29,041 nucleotides of DNA from a virus. Below, one piece after another: positions 599-10,806 of this stretch. Position 1 is the stretch's first letter. Each line of letters opens with the position of its first letter. The translations under genes and the position numbers were made by a program. The notes beneath the pieces were generated by a model. That model did no database searches. It saw only the letters and a program-made list of their open reading frames with translations, and had not been told where the DNA came from. The stretch spans positions 1-29,041 of IMG/VR virus record IMGVR_UViG_3300017948_000007. The stretch is one strand, 5' to 3'.

Positions 599-2005
599 TT
601 AGACCGGGCTGATTTGATAGCCGCCGCCTAGTACCATCCGCTGTGTCCGTGGCACGACCTTACAAAACGCCATCACCTCAGCTTCGGCGCGATCCGGCGA
701 CGGAATCCCGCGCTTCCGCGCATCCTCTTTCGGCTCTACTTGGATCTGTCCGCGGCTCAATTCGCGGTATTCCACAGCGGACAATTGCGCTTTTACATCT
801 TCGTCTGTCGCTCCCGGCAAATGGCTGATGTAATTATCTTTGTACATATCGCGCAGTCGGAAATAGCTTTCGGCTTTCGCGTTGAGGAATTGCTCGCTAT
901 CCATCGCCGCCGCGCCGGCCTTGAAGCTGCGCACATCGAGGTTCTGGTCTGCCAAGTGGAGAGCCATTCCGTGTCCGACCCCGACGGTGTCAACCACTAC
1001 CGGTCCAGGCGCATACCCAAATCGGCGTAGGTTGACAATCCAGCGCACGAGCGGACCTCGCGGATCAGCCTCGCTCCAAGCTCCACGGTCCAGCACTATG
1101 CCATTTACGCGGGCACAGGCCGCCGTTTCGTCGTCGCCGCCCGCCGCGACGTCTACGCCCACCTGAACCACGCAGCCCTTAGAACGGCTTATTTCGCCTT
1201 CCGTGGGCTCGCGGTCGGCTCGCTCGATCCAAGCGAGCGAAAACACCGCCCATTGCCCCTGTGTGGGAAACTCGCCGAGCACGCGGGACTGAAACCGCGG
1301 ATTCTGCGGTCCCCACTTCGCGTGCATTTCCTTGACCCAGCGGCGCCGCGTGAGCCAAGGGAACGGCGCGTAATCAAGCTGCTCGTCGGGCAGCTGTAGT
1401 AGTGACTCCAGCGTCAAACCGGAGAGATTCGGCGTGTCGAATGCGCTGATCGTGATGCACTGGTGTCCAGGCGTGGCGCGGAGTTTCGCGAAGTCATCGT
1501 ACACCGGGCCGCTCGGCACCGTCGGATTGCACAGCTTGACGATACGGACGTCTCCGGCCGCGCGGATCCCCTCGATCGCGTCCCACACGTCGGGGCCAAT
1601 GCCGATCGCCTCATCGGCGTAGATAGTAACGCGCTTGCCGTGGAAACCCTGGGCGTTGACGCCTTTCGCACTCGAGAACCCCTGCGCGTAGCACTTCGGC
1701 GATATCTCCCAACGCGTCGTGGTGGGTATCGGAATCTTACACGGCATCTTGCCGATTGCCTCGGTGATTTCGCCCCAGCCGGTTTTGACTTGGCGCAGCG
1801 TCGGCGCGATCCATAGCACGATTGATTCGTCGTAGCCCGCCAGTTCCCACGGCACCATGCCAGAGACGACGAAGGTCTTTCCTGAGCCGTGACAGCCTTT
1901 GATGGCCACGCTGCGATGTGTCGCGATGGCGTGACAGATCTCGCGTTGCTTTGACCAGAGTTGGCGGCGTAGAATCCCGCGCTGGAACTCAGCCGGTGGG
2001 AGCAT
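599..2005 (-). CDS. terL: Terminase large subunit
   Basis: DNA-packaging motor and headful/cohesive-end nuclease of 468 residues, the usual length for a TerL. The ATPase domain has a Walker A motif GCHGSGKT at residues 37-44, Walker B VTIYADE at about 126-132, and a coupling motif LCNPT near 158. The C-terminal RNase H-fold nuclease shows Asp285 (VGVDVAAGG), Asp339 (VVVDTVGVGHG) and Asp438 (SPDRAEAE), the expected acidic triad. The ATG at 2005 overlaps the small subunit by 17 bases, so the two are co-translated. In the mature virus it docks on the portal, which is absent from this window. Terminase sits here at the far end of the replication operon rather than upstream of the head genes. Confidence 0.96.
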   Translation of the reverse strand: MLPPAEFQRGILRRQLWSKQREICHAIATHRSVAIKGCHGSGKTFVVSGMVPWELAGYDESIVLWIAPTLRQVKTGWGEITEAIGKMPCKIPIPTTTRWEISPKCYAQGFSSAKGVNAQGFHGKRVTIYADEAIGIGPDVWDAIEGIRAAGDVRIVKLCNPTVPSGPVYDDFAKLRATPGHQCITISAFDTPNLSGLTLESLLQLPDEQLDYAPFPWLTRRRWVKEMHAKWGPQNPRFQSRVLGEFPTQGQWAVFSLAWIERADREPTEGEISRSKGCVVQVGVDVAAGGDDETAACARVNGIVLDRGAWSEADPRGPLVRWIVNLRRFGYAPGPVVVDTVGVGHGMALHLADQNLDVRSFKAGAAAMDSEQFLNAKAESYFRLRDMYKDNYISHLPGATDEDVKAQLSAVEYRELSRGQIQVEPKEDARKRGIPSPDRAEAEVMAFCKVVPRTQRMVLGGGYQISPV

Positions 2006-2363
2006 CGGGTGCCGATTGCATGTAGGCTCGGATGTCGGAGAAGTTCATGGCGCGGTCTTTGCCGTGCTCGTCCACGAATCGGTGTGTGTTGTCGTTCGTC
2101 TCGCGCCAGCCGGCGCGGGTCTTGAGCCAGAAGAAAGTCGCCGCAGGAACCTGGCCGCTGGTCGCCATCGCATAGCAGGTTTCCGCGACCTTGGCGTTCG
2201 CCTGGATGGCGGCGGTCTTGAGTTCTGCGGCGAAGTACTTGCGCAGTGTGATATGGCCGATGCCGATTACCGCGCCGATGTCTTCTTGCGGTACGCCGTA
2301 GCTCGCCATGGCGGTAACGATTGCGCGGTCTTTCTCGGTCGGGGCGAATGCTTTGCGTGCCAC
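1989..2363 (-). CDS. terS: Terminase small subunit
   Basis: A 124-residue DNA-binding subunit that should recognise the packaging site and hand DNA to TerL. Residues 8-45 form a predicted helix-turn-helix (DRAIVTAMASYGVPQEDIGA then IGIGHITLRKYFAAEL). The rest is helical with FFWLKTRAGWRE near residue 77-88, a segment common in phage small terminases. It starts with GTG, two bases after the ASCH gene's stop, and its 3' end overlaps terL. No good ribosome-binding site is seen, so translation is probably coupled. Position directly before terL and the fold support the call. Confidence 0.85.
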   Translation of the reverse strand: MARKAFAPTEKDRAIVTAMASYGVPQEDIGAVIGIGHITLRKYFAAELKTAAIQANAKVAETCYAMATSGQVPAATFFWLKTRAGWRETNDNTHRFVDEHGKDRAMNFSDIRAYMQSAPDAPTG

Positions 2364-2364
2364 A

Positions 2365-2664
2365 CTACAGCGTAGCGCGACGTTGCCAGCCCTGCAAATG
2401 CTTGATTCCGGGAGCGCTATCCAATATCGGGGTTGCGATGCGAATGCCGTACCGATAGCCGTCGCCGCGACGGAAGCGCTTGACGTGACGGACTGTCGCG
2501 AGGATTACCCGGTCAGTGCGCGACTCCTGGAGCACGATCAGTTCGCCGGCGCGGATGCTCTCTAGCCGCTTGTCGATGCCCTTGCGATCACGCCATTCGG
2601 TGCGCTTCCGGCCCTCCAGAATCGCGCGAAAGTACTGCGGGTAAAGACAGGCGATGTTGATCAC
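2365..2664 (-). CDS. ASCH/PUA-like domain protein
   Basis: A 99-residue protein consisting of a single ASCH-like domain: N-terminal strand plus YPQYFRAILEGRKRTEWR, then RAGELIVLQES, then an RVILATVRHVKRF strand. The pattern Y-x-x-x-I-x-x-G-x-K-x-x-E-x-R followed by a G-E/D turn is typical of ASCH. The fold is related to PUA/EVE/YTH domains that bind RNA or modified bases. It begins with GTG in a GTGA overlap with the Mom-like gene, so the two are expressed together. Inference: it could read, protect or regulate the modified DNA made by its neighbour, but no catalytic role can be shown. Confidence 0.75.
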   Translation of the reverse strand: MINIACLYPQYFRAILEGRKRTEWRDRKGIDKRLESIRAGELIVLQESRTDRVILATVRHVKRFRRGDGYRYGIRIATPILDSAPGIKHLQGWQRRATL

Positions 2665-3416
2665 GATTCCACGATAGCGGCTTTTGACATCTCTGTCGTA
2701 GGTGAAATCCCCGATATCGGTACTGTTTCGTGGAGCGTCCGGGTCGAATTCGAATCGCCCTCTCCGGCGTGGACCGCCGGCGTGTCGGCCAGATCACTAC
2801 GGACGCGCTTGGGATACGGCTGTGCGATCTCTGCGAGTTTAGCACGCATTTCGGCGTCGAGGCCGAGTGCATACCGGTGTTTCGGCTCCAGCCGAATGCG
2901 TTCGCAATCGCCCTTGAAGGTCACTCTCTGCGGCTTGCCGCGCGACATCTTCCAGCCACTGGCGGACACCTGCCGCGAGTGATGGAGCACGCCGTCCGCA
3001 TCCCGGTACATCGAGTCCGGCGCGCTTTTGCCGATGTACGTCCATCCGGCGCCCTGGTAGATTCCGCCGTGATGACCCGCGGCGGGGTCGGAGTAAGTGA
3101 GCAGCAATCGCAGGCCAGGCTGTGCGCGATGTAGGATTTTGCAGGCGATGGAAATTATCCGGCTGACCTCGACGCTGTGACTCTTGAGCGCTATCCGCGA
3201 GAGTTCTGCCGTGCCGAACTTGCCCGCGCCGAGTTTTTCGCCGATCTTCGAAACGCCGCCGGTACCGCAGCCGAATATCAGCGCCCCAACAAATCGTCCA
3301 TCGTCCCACACACCGAACTTAGTGAGCTTCCCAACGGGCATTTCAGGCCGCGAGTACCAGTGCTCGCAGGCGTAGCGCGCAGCCTCGTGAGAGCACCAAT
3401 CAAGGCGTAAAGACAT
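2661..3416 (-). CDS. mom: Mom-like DNA adenine modification protein (GNAT-related fold)
   Basis: A 251-residue protein closely resembling the Mom family. In phage Mu, Mom converts adenine to an N6-acetamido-type adenine and shields DNA from restriction. Recognisable blocks are EHWYSRPEMPVGK (residues 18-30), FGVWDDGRFVGALIFG (34-49), AELSRIALKSH (70-80), SRIISIACKIL (85-95), LLLTYSDPAAGHHGGIYQGA (104-123) and WTYIGKSAP. His19, Tyr21, Arg74, Asp110 and Tyr120 lie where Mom-type proteins are conserved. A basic tail ends PYPKR near residue 204, then about 45 residues of low-complexity tail. I chose the ATG at 3416, just after the ParB-like frame, rather than the longer upstream frame, because homology starts there. 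It overlaps the ParB-like gene by 17 bases and the ASCH gene by GTGA. Confidence 0.88.
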   Translation of the reverse strand: MSLRLDWCSHEAARYACEHWYSRPEMPVGKLTKFGVWDDGRFVGALIFGCGTGGVSKIGEKLGAGKFGTAELSRIALKSHSVEVSRIISIACKILHRAQPGLRLLLTYSDPAAGHHGGIYQGAGWTYIGKSAPDSMYRDADGVLHHSRQVSASGWKMSRGKPQRVTFKGDCERIRLEPKHRYALGLDAEMRAKLAEIAQPYPKRVRSDLADTPAVHAGEGDSNSTRTLHETVPISGISPTTEMSKAAIVES

Positions 3417-3942
3417 GTTTGCACGATGGACACGTGATCGGTTTTTTCTGATCCAGTCGGCCCTGTTCTTCCTCCGTGGCTGGCTGGAAGTTCGCGCCGC
3501 GGAAATAGGCATCCACTTGGGTAAGATCGAACGCCGTCGCCTTCAGATCGAAGTCGAGCGCTTTCAGTTCGCCGAATTCCCGCGCCAGGAGATCGGTGTC
3601 CCATTCCGCCTCGTCGTGAGTGCGATTATCGGCCAAACGAAGCCCTCTGACGGCCTCGGGCGAAAGGTCCGCCGCTACATGTACCGGAACCTGCGTCAAG
3701 CCAGCCAGACGAGCTCCCTGCCTCCGCAAATGGCCAATTACGATCACGCCTGCCCCGTCAACTACGATTGGCTGTCGCCAGCCGTACGCCTTGATGCTCG
3801 CGGCGACTTTGACGACCGCCTCCGGTTTCCACTTTCGGGCGTTCAGCGGGTAGTCCTGCGGTCGCTCGATATCCCACCACTCAACCGCGAAATTGGCGTT
3901 TATAGGCGATACTTTGGGCGATTTGGCTGCTTTTCGCTTCAC
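3400..3942 (-). CDS. ParB-like N-terminal domain protein with C-terminal zinc knuckle
   Basis: A 180-residue protein with a ParB/sulfiredoxin-type domain at about residues 20-110: YPLNARKW, VVKVAASIKAYGWRQPIVVD, VIVIGHLRRQGARLAG and VPVHVA, followed by LADNRTHDEAEWD. The IGHLRRQGA segment corresponds to the nucleotide-binding GxxR loop of ParB. The central helix-turn-helix and dimer domain of true partition ParB proteins are absent, and the end carries a single CPSCKH knuckle. This arrangement is common in phage proteins linked to DNA methylases or modification genes. GTG start in a GTGA overlap with the gene upstream. Position next to the Mom-like gene suggests a role in modification, for example as nucleotide-dependent partner, nuclease or regulator; that is inference. 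Confidence 0.85.
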   Translation of the reverse strand: MKRKAAKSPKVSPINANFAVEWWDIERPQDYPLNARKWKPEAVVKVAASIKAYGWRQPIVVDGAGVIVIGHLRRQGARLAGLTQVPVHVAADLSPEAVRGLRLADNRTHDEAEWDTDLLAREFGELKALDFDLKATAFDLTQVDAYFRGANFQPATEEEQGRLDQKKPITCPSCKHVFTP

Positions 3943-7869: not shown

Positions 7870-8672
7870 CAGAACACCACCTTTACGTGACGTACGCGGC
7901 CATCCATGATCGCATCCACCGGGCATGTGGCAGCATTCAGACCCTCTAGTATCTCCGCGCGGATCGACCGCCTCAAGGCCTCATCCGCCTCCCGTTTGGC
8001 CCGTGCGTCCGCATCGGCTTTGCGTTCTCGCTCCACCCGTTCCCGCTCTTTGACCACAGCCGCCGCCTTTGCTTTGTGCTCCGCTTTCACCCGTGCGGCT
8101 TCAGCGGCTTCGGCTTTGAGCCGCTCATCGCGCTCACGCTGGAGGCGTTCCGTTTCCGCCTTGCGCAGCCGGGCTAACTCTTCTTGCTCGGCCTCGAATC
8201 GCTTCCGATACGCACTCCTCACTTCCTGTTCCTCAATCCACGCCGCTACAAGGTCGATAGCGGCTTGATATCGACTCCACGGCTGGCACTCGGGATGGTC
8301 GGCCAATTCTTCTGGCAGTCCCTTTTGCCAATAGTCCAAATCGTGGACTACACATCCTACGCCGATCTGACGTAGCGAGTGCGGATACACGATGTACGGA
8401 TGGCATTGCACCTGAGTTGGCGTAGTCTGATACCTCACCCCGTCGCCGAGCGTCACCTCGTCGCCGAGCGTCACCTCGTCGCCGAGCCTCACCCCGTTGC
8501 CGAGCCTCACCCCGTTGCCGAGCGTCACCTCGTTGCCGAGCGTCACCCTGTTGCCGAGCGTCACCTCGTTGCCGAGCGTCACCCCGTCGCCGAGCGTCAC
8601 CCTGTTGCCGCCGGGCAGAATCCGACATCCGTCGAGCGTGGGCGCGATTGCGTATATCTCCGATGTCGTCAA
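7869..8672 (-). CDS. Hexapeptide-repeat (left-handed beta-helix-like) protein with coiled-coil tail
   Basis: A 267-residue protein in three parts. Residues 23-80 are nine or ten repeats of the hexapeptide x-V-x-L-G-x (VTLGNE, VTLGDG, VRLGNG), matching the [LIV]-G-x-x-V-x rule of left-handed beta-helices. Next is a compact segment with CHPYIVYPHS, IGVGCVVHDLDYW and HPECQPWSRY, rich in Cys, His and Trp. The last 130 residues are a long Glu/Lys/Arg/Ala coiled coil (EAEQEELARLRKAETERLQR onward), ending with a short domain. The TTG start at 8672 overlaps the previous stop (TTGA) and has GGAGG four bases upstream. A longer frame to 8930 would overlap two other genes. Probably an oligomeric scaffold or binding protein; I cannot name its partner. 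Confidence 0.75.
   Translation of the reverse strand: MTTSEIYAIAPTLDGCRILPGGNRVTLGDGVTLGNEVTLGNRVTLGNEVTLGNGVRLGNGVRLGDEVTLGDEVTLGDGVRYQTTPTQVQCHPYIVYPHSLRQIGVGCVVHDLDYWQKGLPEELADHPECQPWSRYQAAIDLVAAWIEEQEVRSAYRKRFEAEQEELARLRKAETERLQRERDERLKAEAAEAARVKAEHKAKAAAVVKERERVERERKADADARAKREADEALRRSIRAEILEGLNAATCPVDAIMDGRVRHVKVVF
8445..8606 (-). repeat. Nine 18-bp tandem repeats encoding hexapeptides
   Basis: Nine contiguous 18-base units, each beginning GCCGAG on the plus strand. On the minus strand each encodes x-V-x-L-G-x. The Val (GTG), Leu (CTC) and Gly (GGC) codons are identical in every unit. All differences fall in three codons: Glu/Gly/Arg, Thr/Arg and Asp/Asn, and each changes the residue. 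No synonymous difference is seen. Confidence 0.95.
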
Positions 8673-9353: not shown

Positions 9354-10004
9354 TCATCGCAGCACCAACGAGTCGTGCCACTCCAAGTCGGCACCAGGCA
9401 CGTCCACGCCGCTCTTAATGGCCTTTTTGATCGCGCTCAGGCTGATATCCTCGGCGACGCGAATCGTGGCGACGCCCTCAACGATGCCGGCATCGGCAGA
9501 TGCTGTGCCCATCGCCGACAGATGTGCCCACAGCCACGCCGGCATCTTGACCGTGACGTTTTTGTACGCCGCGGGGATCTCGGCCGGCTCCTCGACCTGT
9601 ACGGCATCCGACTGGCGGATAAATAGCGTGTTGCTCTCCGTCTTGAGTTGCCGCAGGTTGCGCGACTGCATGACCGACACCACGTAGTCACGCAGCCACT
9701 TCTCCGCGCGCTCGAAGGTCTTGCGCCGCGCGTGGATGCGCTCTTGCTCAGCCTTGAGAGCATCCTGCTCCGTGGACATCCGGCGCAGCACGCCAGCTAT
9801 ATTGTCCGTTTTGGCAGCAAGCTCGGCACCGAGCTTGCTCAGCGCTGCGTCGATCTCTGCGAGTTGCGCGGTTAACCCCGCACGATCACCGTCCTCGGTC
9901 GGCTCGGCGAGTTGAGCCGCGACCATTTCGCGGCTCTCGAACCAGGCGCTGATATCGTCGGTCAGCGCCCATAGCGTGCGTTGCTGGACTGCCAGTTCAC
10001 TCAT
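9354..10004 (-). CDS. Gp157-family phage protein
   Basis: A 216-residue protein matching the siphovirus Gp157 family: a long coiled coil with AKTDNIAGVLRRMSTEQDAL and the E-x-x-R-I-x-A-R-R-K-T-F-E-R-A-E-x-W-L-R-x-Y core at about residues 64-110, then EIPAAYKNVTVKMP and AIKKAIKSGVDVPGADLEW. Members usually sit beside phage recombination genes, as here. The family was first linked to phage resistance in Streptococcus; its biochemical role is unclear. ATG start in an overlap with the bet-like stop. A C-terminal lysine-containing segment (SAIKKAIKSG) is typical of the family. Confidence 0.85.
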   Translation of the reverse strand: MSELAVQQRTLWALTDDISAWFESREMVAAQLAEPTEDGDRAGLTAQLAEIDAALSKLGAELAAKTDNIAGVLRRMSTEQDALKAEQERIHARRKTFERAEKWLRDYVVSVMQSRNLRQLKTESNTLFIRQSDAVQVEEPAEIPAAYKNVTVKMPAWLWAHLSAMGTASADAGIVEGVATIRVAEDISLSAIKKAIKSGVDVPGADLEWHDSLVLR

Positions 10005-10806
10005 TTGGCTGCTCCTGTTGGGACTCTTCCATCATTCGGCGTGTGCTATTCCAAAGCGCCGTGAAGCAACGCTTTGCATTACCAGGGCTGCGCCAGTTGT
10101 CCCCGGTGACCTGGAATTGCTCAAGCGTCTGATTCCAGGCTTCCTCGGATTCGTACTTTAGCCACGCTTTCTTGAGCTCGGCGAACGCCGGCCCGATTGC
10201 CTCCTTGCGCCCGAATGTGGCGAGAATTGCGGCCAGGGGATCGGCAGGCGCGGCTTCAGCCACGGGAGCCGACTCTACGGCCGGCTTCGGCTCAGGGGGC
10301 GCCACGGGCACCGGGCCGATCTCTTCCTCGGACACCACACCGTTGATCGCGAAGGACCGCTTGAGCGCCAGGACTTCTGCGACCTTGGATATCATCGCGC
10401 TCGGGTACTGGCTCCAGACGCCGGATTGCTTGCGGTACTCGGAGTAGTAGGCCTCGCAGATGATCGGATGGGCGCGGTCCTTGCGCCACACGGTGCAAGT
10501 GGCCTTGATTGGCACCATCTTGTCATCTCGATCCACGTGGGTGCTCATGCCGTCGAATTGCGGATGGCGGTTGGCGGCGGCCAGGTAGCCGTCGCGGCCA
10601 GCCATGATGCCGACGGAAGGCACAAACCAAACCTCGCGGAGAAACGGGTCCAGTCCGGTGGCTCGGCATACCTGGATGAACATCTTGAATTGGGCATCCG
10701 TGGCACCCTTGCACACGGTTTGCTTGAGGGTGTCGACCATCTCGCGCTGGTCGTACTTGTCGCGCGCAATCTCTGCGCTGGATGCTTGGACTAACTCACC
10801 GGGCAT
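9997..10806 (-). CDS. bet: Bet/RecT-family single-strand annealing protein
   Basis: A 269-residue recombinase that anneals complementary single strands during phage recombination. The conserved core is at residues about 18-165: DTLKQTVCKGATDAQFKMFI, CRATGLDPFLREVWFVP, IMAGRDGYLAAANRHPQFDG, CTVWRKDRAHPIICEAYYSEY, WSQYPSAMISKVAEVLALKR and FAINGVVSEEEIG, in the order of lambda Bet-type proteins. A Pro/Ala linker follows at about 170-195, then a helical C-terminal domain possibly for a partner protein. ATG start overlapping the 55-residue gene by 11 bases. No lambda-type exonuclease is visible in the window, so the 5'-3' resection enzyme must be elsewhere, host-derived, or an unrecognised gene. 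Confidence 0.9.
   Translation of the reverse strand: MPGELVQASSAEIARDKYDQREMVDTLKQTVCKGATDAQFKMFIQVCRATGLDPFLREVWFVPSVGIMAGRDGYLAAANRHPQFDGMSTHVDRDDKMVPIKATCTVWRKDRAHPIICEAYYSEYRKQSGVWSQYPSAMISKVAEVLALKRSFAINGVVSEEEIGPVPVAPPEPKPAVESAPVAEAAPADPLAAILATFGRKEAIGPAFAELKKAWLKYESEEAWNQTLEQFQVTGDNWRSPGNAKRCFTALWNSTRRMMEESQQEQPNE

Follow-up and report, generated by a model that had tools for sequence, protein, structure and literature searches.

A tRNA-Gly-like RNA is the partner most tightly tied to the DNA-modifying enzyme Mom at the viral locus studied here, and within one large section of the Mom family its link to the enzyme is near-obligate. This RNA, referred to below as the tRNA-Gly-like structure (TLS), was absent from the initial annotation of the same DNA, which had described protein genes. 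Its structure, its glycine identity and its tie to mom genes suggest that a charged tRNA supplies the glycine for the Mom modification.

The mom locus and its enzyme

The DNA analysed, hereafter the window, is a 29,041-nt viral contig (IMG/VR record IMGVR_UViG_3300017948_000007, positions 1 to 29,041). On its minus strand the order, 5′ to 3′, is ParB-like gene, mom, ASCH gene, terS and terL, and the three genes that the initial annotation had placed ahead of terS-terL were all recovered as minus-strand ORFs. The features are as follows.

3400..3942, minus strand: ParB-N-like protein, 180 aa, with a C-terminal CPxC..H tail, overlapping the mom start (phrog_620, E 1.8e-38; ParB_N, E 4e-5)
2661..3416, minus strand: mom, a Mom-family GNAT-fold DNA adenine modification enzyme (PF25680, E 6.8e-33)
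2731..2806, minus strand: TLS within the mom 3′ end (CM R1, 78.8 bits, E 9.1e-18; covariation)
2771..2773, minus strand: TLS anticodon TCC, positions 34-36 (cmsearch alignment)
2731..2734, minus strand: TLS discriminator U73 and encoded CCA end (cmsearch alignment; U73 in 68/68 and 100/100 of two later TLS sets)
2365..2664, minus strand: ASCH (PUA-like) protein, 99 aa (Pfam ASCH, E 0.0068; GxKxxExR motif; fold match 3iuw)
1989..2363, minus strand: terminase small subunit, terS, a neighbour (phrog_309, E 4.5e-9)
599..2005, minus strand: terminase large subunit, terL, a neighbour (phrog_2, E 2.4e-25; Terminase_6N, E 3.9e-5)

The locus is well supported as a Mom-type adenine hypermodification cassette. 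The Mom protein scores 114.5 bits against Pfam PF25680, above the curated cut-off of 27.1, and matches phrog_1384 in PHROG (E 1.2e-39). The best PDB fold match of its predicted structure is Mu Mom itself (8BV8, E 1.2e-11, TM 0.74 by target length), so that the Mom-type enzyme named in the initial annotation is confirmed by both profile and fold. The mom ORF opens at 3512 (2661-3512), and comparison with relatives places the true start probably near 3416 (MSLRLDWC). The Mom core is predicted by AlphaFold with a pLDDT of ~97; its conserved part ends at the residues PYPK, about 5 nt ahead of the TLS, and the TLS-encoded tail of the protein (residues ~240-283) is predicted to be disordered. The other fold matches of Mom are CoA-dependent acetyltransferases. 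A CoA pyrophosphate loop (R/Q-x-x-G-x-G/A, from strand 4 to the next helix) could not be recognised in the sequence and predicted secondary structure of Mom, where the corresponding place, between the strand at 101-109 and the helix at 116-130, is occupied by KSHSVE.

Elsewhere in the window, tandem repeats with an 18-bp unit were seen at 8-221 (GCCGGAGCCGTAGCCGTA, at the contig end) and at 8435-8610 (TCACCCCGTTGCCGAGCG, inside an ORF), and at 9354-10806 a Mu Gam-like end-protection protein adjoins a Bet/RecT-like annealing protein.

Structure, glycine identity and distribution of the TLS

The window TLS is a cloverleaf with a UCC anticodon, U73, an encoded CCA and a T stem with a bulged A, and it carries G33 instead of U33. 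Leads to this structure came first from two annotated phages with a tRNA-Gly beside mom and from two more such tRNAs found by ARAGORN at mom 3′ ends; at other loci the DNA that follows the conserved PYPK of Mom contains the same cloverleaf almost everywhere, usually within the mom frame. When the window was scanned with CM R1, a model built from the TLSs of 37 loci, the TLS stood well clear of the next best match, which reached 12.4 bits. ARAGORN with relaxed settings calls the window copy as tRNA-Gly(tcc). Neither ARAGORN nor Rfam at default settings detected it in the window, and default tRNA finders mostly miss TLSs that are embedded in the mom frame. A blastn search with the window TLS returned short chance matches only, in phage records, and folding of the single window sequence gave a structure whose stability exceeds that of shuffles only slightly (z -1.4), which is not decisive. 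Compared with the nearest relative of the window (L006), the TLS shows 97% identity, and compared with a second relative (L008) 89%; the corresponding values for the mom core DNA are 86% and 78%.

Comparative data establish the fold. In the alignment of the 37 TLSs, 96.6% of pair cells are standard and compensatory changes are seen in 17 of the 21 pairs, while none of 500 shuffles gave a comparable result and shifting the partners by 1-3 columns leaves only 36-44% paired. RNAalifold, given the alignment alone, recovers the cloverleaf. Two further TLS sets are 97.0% and 98.7% paired, both having been found by, and aligned to, the model.

The glycine identity set recognised by E. coli glycyl-tRNA synthetase (GlyRS) comprises G1:C72, C2:G71, G3:C70, U73, C35 and C36. 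Among the 37 seed TLSs the three acceptor pairs and U73 are invariant and C35/C36 are kept in at least 90%, and all of these bases are present in the window copy. Every readable anticodon in the second set is a glycine anticodon (64/64: TCC 40, ACC 21, CCC 3), with U73 in all 68 members and an encoded CCA in 59 of the 68; in the third set U73 is likewise found in 100 of 100. Features associated with translation are less well kept. U33 is present in 34/64 TLSs of the second set, and in the third set it is found in 20 of 67 TLSs that follow mom (mom-first) compared to 28 of 31 that precede it (TLS-first). Most mom-first TLSs have the bulged A in the T stem, and hence no regular 5-bp T stem, and many of them have degenerate loops.

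The link between the TLS and Mom was assessed from both directions. In a forward test, all 67 other viral Mom loci gave an R1 match beside mom on the coding strand, 66 of them at E < 1e-5 and one weakly (0.013). The reverse search used only the T arm with its bulged A as a pattern in viral contigs, and for 115 of the 119 matches the same strand also encodes a Mom-family protein; 112 lay within 300 nt of mom, 76 with the TLS after mom and 36 with the TLS before it, and the four remaining matches lay 26-345 nt from the edge of their locus. As a negative control, loci were fetched with the window ParB-like protein: a TLS was found in none of 30 without Mom, and in all four tested that have Mom. 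In ten bacterial genomes (~49 Mb), picked because each contained such a locus, all 13 matches of 62 bits or more are located at mom genes. Four of these genomes’ Mom genes were new to the analysis (G001:C110, G005:C35, G005:C36 and G008:C52), and each has a TLS. Where a genome contains between two and four Mom genes, each is accompanied by one TLS. The matches below 62 bits that were checked are ordinary tRNAs, and the carriers also have ordinary tRNA-Gly genes. Two local variations in copy number were seen in other loci: a single Mom locus with two TLS copies of equal score (L189:1312-1381 and 2023-2092), and loci with two or three tandem mom genes where a TLS was seen only behind the last mom (L066, L041, L050, L056 and L126).

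The TLS is embedded in the mom ORF in 116 of 139 loci, but it is found in all three phases relative to the mom frame, and some copies lie partly or fully outside the ORF. Coding constraint was considered as the source of the conserved bases, and was rejected on the three phases and on the non-ORF and antisense copies. Gene order also varies. In two Chloroflexota contigs (L105:3921-4950 and L106:3851-4800) the order is TLS-mom-ParB, and in the Microbacterium phages Blett and Phonegingi an annotated canonical tRNA-Gly lies on the strand opposite mom. That the association survives these arrangements (mom-TLS, TLS-mom and opposite-strand canonical tRNA-Gly) indicates that the link between TLS and Mom is functional.

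In a tree of 114 Mom proteins a TLS accompanies 94, a proportion that is not a family-wide frequency, as sampling began from the window Mom. The TLS-bearing proteins include deep branches, namely one that unites a Pseudanabaena phage with a Verrucomicrobiota contig and one from Chloroflexota. The tree requires at least seven changes, so the TLS has been lost or gained several times. No TLS was found at the Mom loci of Mu-like Pseudomonas, Salmonella, Aeromonas and Psychrobacter phages, of phiEf11, of Yersinia and Serratia, or of most Bacteroidota, and the existence of such loci means that a dedicated RNA is not essential across the family. A cultured Pseudanabaena phage, Pan3, whose Mom is very divergent, has an unannotated UCC TLS at the end of that Mom (L081:3412-3480) and is a possible experimental model.

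The ParB-like and ASCH neighbours

The initial annotation described the gene upstream of mom as encoding a ParB-N-like protein with a zinc knuckle. By its phrog_620 match the protein is ParB-like, and the zinc knuckle is reduced to a single C-terminal CPSCKH, whose CxxC is shared by 86 of the 92 relatives that lie beside Mom. Against Pfam ParB_N the protein scores 24.0 bits, slightly below the cut-off of 26.3. A full TIGR00180-type ParB, with helix-turn-helix and dimerisation parts, was not recognised in this protein of only 180 aa (23.2 bits against a cut-off of 58.45). The Mu protein Com is encoded directly upstream of mom, and the ParB C-tail in the window (ITCPSCKHVF, within 3400-3450) resembles half of the Com zinc finger, of which it is a possible analogue.

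A ParB-like gene lies immediately upstream of mom in 152 of 174 Mom loci, some of which are near-copies of each other, and a ParB gene beside Mom can already be seen in annotated phages. Relatives of the protein also occur without Mom, and in most of the ten tested an N6/N4 DNA methyltransferase is either fused to the relative or encoded next to it downstream. Close relatives of the window ParB (up to 75% identity) form the N-terminal domains of such methyltransferases in L313-L344; in one of these loci (L341) the next gene encodes a PAPS-reductase-like protein, as in phosphorothioation systems. Given that fusions of this ParB family to N6/N4 DNA methyltransferases exist elsewhere, ParB more likely has a general accessory function in base modification, and it seems to assist phage DNA-modifying enzymes in general.

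The gene downstream of mom was initially called ASCH (PUA-like), and this call holds for a divergent member of the family. The protein scores 17.5 bits against Pfam ASCH (PF04266), below the cut-off of 21.2, but the GxKxxExR signature is present as GRKRTEWR. The best PDB match of its predicted model, for which the pLDDT is only 67, is the ASCH protein 3iuw (E 1.6e-3), with YTH and THYN1 among the weak matches. ASCH was seen only in L006-L022 and L018/L019, and it adjoins Mom only in the window’s own clade (near relatives of 78-93% identity). When the downstream neighbours at 80 Mom loci were scanned with Pfam, terminase genes dominated, ASCH fell outside the 25 commonest families and its sole reported member was that of the window. 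The three-gene co-occurrence implied by the initial annotation is therefore seen for ParB and Mom and not, beyond this clade, for ASCH and Mom. A relative of the window, L018 (5900-6260), is missing ParB, Mom and TLS as one unit, the last by a TLS model search of the locus, and retains an N-terminally altered ASCH in which the apparent first ~13 residues of ParB run straight into ASCH residue 16. ASCH is probably a clade-specific local extra and not a core part of the system.

Proposed source of the glycyl group

We hold with good confidence that the core of the system is Mom together with a dedicated tRNA-Gly-like RNA, which would be charged by GlyRS and from which Mom would transfer glycyl to adenine N6, followed by a rearrangement. 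In the first step, the TLS would be released from the mom transcript by RNase P and 3′ processing. The intact glycine identity set suggests that host GlyRS can charge it, while the sequences predict that many TLSs, without U33, part of the D/T-loop contacts and a regular T stem, would be poor substrates for EF-Tu and the ribosome. Mom, with a GNAT fold but without the usual CoA pyrophosphate loop, may then move glycyl from the tRNA onto adenine N6 in DNA, probably with the assistance of ParB. Chemical precedent would allow N6-glycyl-adenine to become N6-carbamoylmethyl-adenine, the known Mom product, with the glycine nitrogen ending on C6 and the carbonyl as the carboxamide. What the comparisons establish is the RNA, its glycine identity and its linkage to Mom, while the steps from processing to rearrangement are proposed. 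Mom relatives without a TLS would draw on host tRNA-Gly or another donor. More broadly, we are reasonably confident that this is a tRNA-dependent DNA base modification, in which the glycine used by Mom comes from a dedicated, mostly non-translating glycyl-tRNA, or from host glycyl-tRNA in the Mu-like relatives.

In 1983 Swinton et al. reportedly identified the Mu Mom product as purin-6-yl glycinamide, so that the base modification and the tRNA agree in their amino acid. Use of aminoacyl-tRNA by GNAT-like proteins has precedents in Fem and leucyl/phenylalanyl-tRNA-protein transferase. In staphylococci, a non-proteinogenic tRNA-Gly with weakened use by EF-Tu and the ribosome feeds the GNAT-like Fem aminoacyl transferases; there the acceptor is a peptidoglycan precursor, whereas here DNA adenine is the proposed acceptor, and the genes for RNA and enzyme are physically linked. 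To our knowledge, the question of how Mom builds its bulky adenine dates back to the identification of the product in the 1980s, the acyl-CoA donor being a guess. Several points count against the proposed mechanism. In hot water, N6-glycyl-adenine yields N6-carboxymethyl-adenine with loss of ammonia, according to the passage of PMC12135143 that cites Chheda and Hall; this rearrangement gives an acid and not an amide, and an amide outcome would require the enzyme. An acyl-CoA such as glycyl-CoA has also been proposed as donor (PMC7824862), which argues against a tRNA. The CoA-dependent acetyltransferases among the other fold matches of Mom, the Mom loci that lack a TLS and the low z of the single-sequence window fold likewise count against the proposal.

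Several other explanations of the locus were weighed. The TLS could be a cis-acting element of the mom mRNA, bound by Mom, GlyRS, RNase P or the ParB zinc tail, that controls translation or processing and donates no glycine. Its position inside the ORF at most loci would fit this, as would the conserved CxxC tail of ParB, encoded by a gene that overlaps the mom start, and the precedent of Mu, where mom translation is controlled by the zinc-finger protein Com (PMC6483171). We consider this unlikely, since some TLSs precede mom and are separated from it by a gap, and others are canonical tRNA-Gly genes on the opposite strand, from which a tRNA fold could not act in cis on the mom mRNA, and since the discriminator, acceptor end and anticodon are kept exactly for glycine, often with an encoded CCA. 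The reading put forward in the initial annotation, in which ParB, Mom and ASCH together make, use and sense modified adenine in time with packaging, draws on the overlap of the three genes in the window’s clade and on the ability of ASCH/YTH/EVE-like folds to bind modified bases. It appears quite improbable: no ASCH is found beside Mom outside that clade, and ASCH persists in L018 where Mom is missing. The timing to packaging gained no support beyond adjacency to terminase, though such adjacency is common.

Phages often carry tRNAs, and tRNA-Gly genes are annotated in Blett, Phonegingi and B2_17, so the TLS might be an ordinary phage tRNA for glycine codons that lies near mom by chance or is moved with it as a unit. 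This is very unlikely and was rejected on the exclusive association with glycine and Mom, which extends over very divergent phages and bacteria, and on the non-translating features, namely the absence of U33 in about half or more of the mom-first TLSs, the bulged A in the T stem and the degenerate loops; the bacterial carriers, moreover, already have ordinary tRNA-Gly genes. Many prophages integrate in tRNA genes, and the TLS might be a remnant of an integration (att) site derived from a host tRNA-Gly gene. We give this idea hardly any credence and rejected it: the TLS forms the entire cloverleaf and shows compensatory changes, unlike a 3′ fragment that is identical to a host tRNA, and it lies by the terminase in most sampled phages.

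Among known systems, phage Mu com-mom (PF25680, 8BV8) uses an enzyme of the family and fold found here (E 1.2e-11 in the structure comparison, 1.4e-28 in the profile comparison) and resembles the window in having a small gene with zinc-type cysteines upstream of mom; the Mu-like locus examined (L077) has neither TLS nor ParB, whereas the window has both. A ParB gene adjoins Mom in Blett, StevieBAY and phiEf11, as it does in the window. The Arthrobacter phage StevieBAY also has an unannotated TLS with its Mom, the Enterococcus phage phiEf11 has ParB-Mom without a TLS, and the canonical tRNA-Gly of Blett is annotated on the strand opposite mom, unlike the same-strand TLS of the window. Phage ParB-domain N6/N4 DNA methyltransferases share a close ParB with the window, but their enzyme is not Mom and there is no TLS. 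The ASCH superfamily (PF04266; 3iuw) shares motif and fold with the divergent window protein.

The proteins thus belong to known families, and the novelty lies in the combination of RNA and enzyme. No report of a tRNA with Mom was found in the open-access literature, a search that did not extend to preprints and most subscription journals, and no record or paper was found that links the Blett-type tRNA with Mom. Within the literature searched, Mom, ParB-Mom pairs and phage tRNAs were known already, and a tRNA-like RNA as a standing part of a DNA-modification system is new. We know of no earlier link between the translation machinery and DNA modification. A further lesson is that standard annotation overlooks conserved tRNA-like genes that lie hidden within ORFs. 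The link between TLS and Mom makes the source of the glycine specifically and cheaply testable, and the enzyme/RNA pair could be used to install an amino-acid-derived group on DNA. If the proposal is true, these loci would represent a new kind of DNA-modification system, one with its own tRNA component, and would link the translation machinery to DNA modification.
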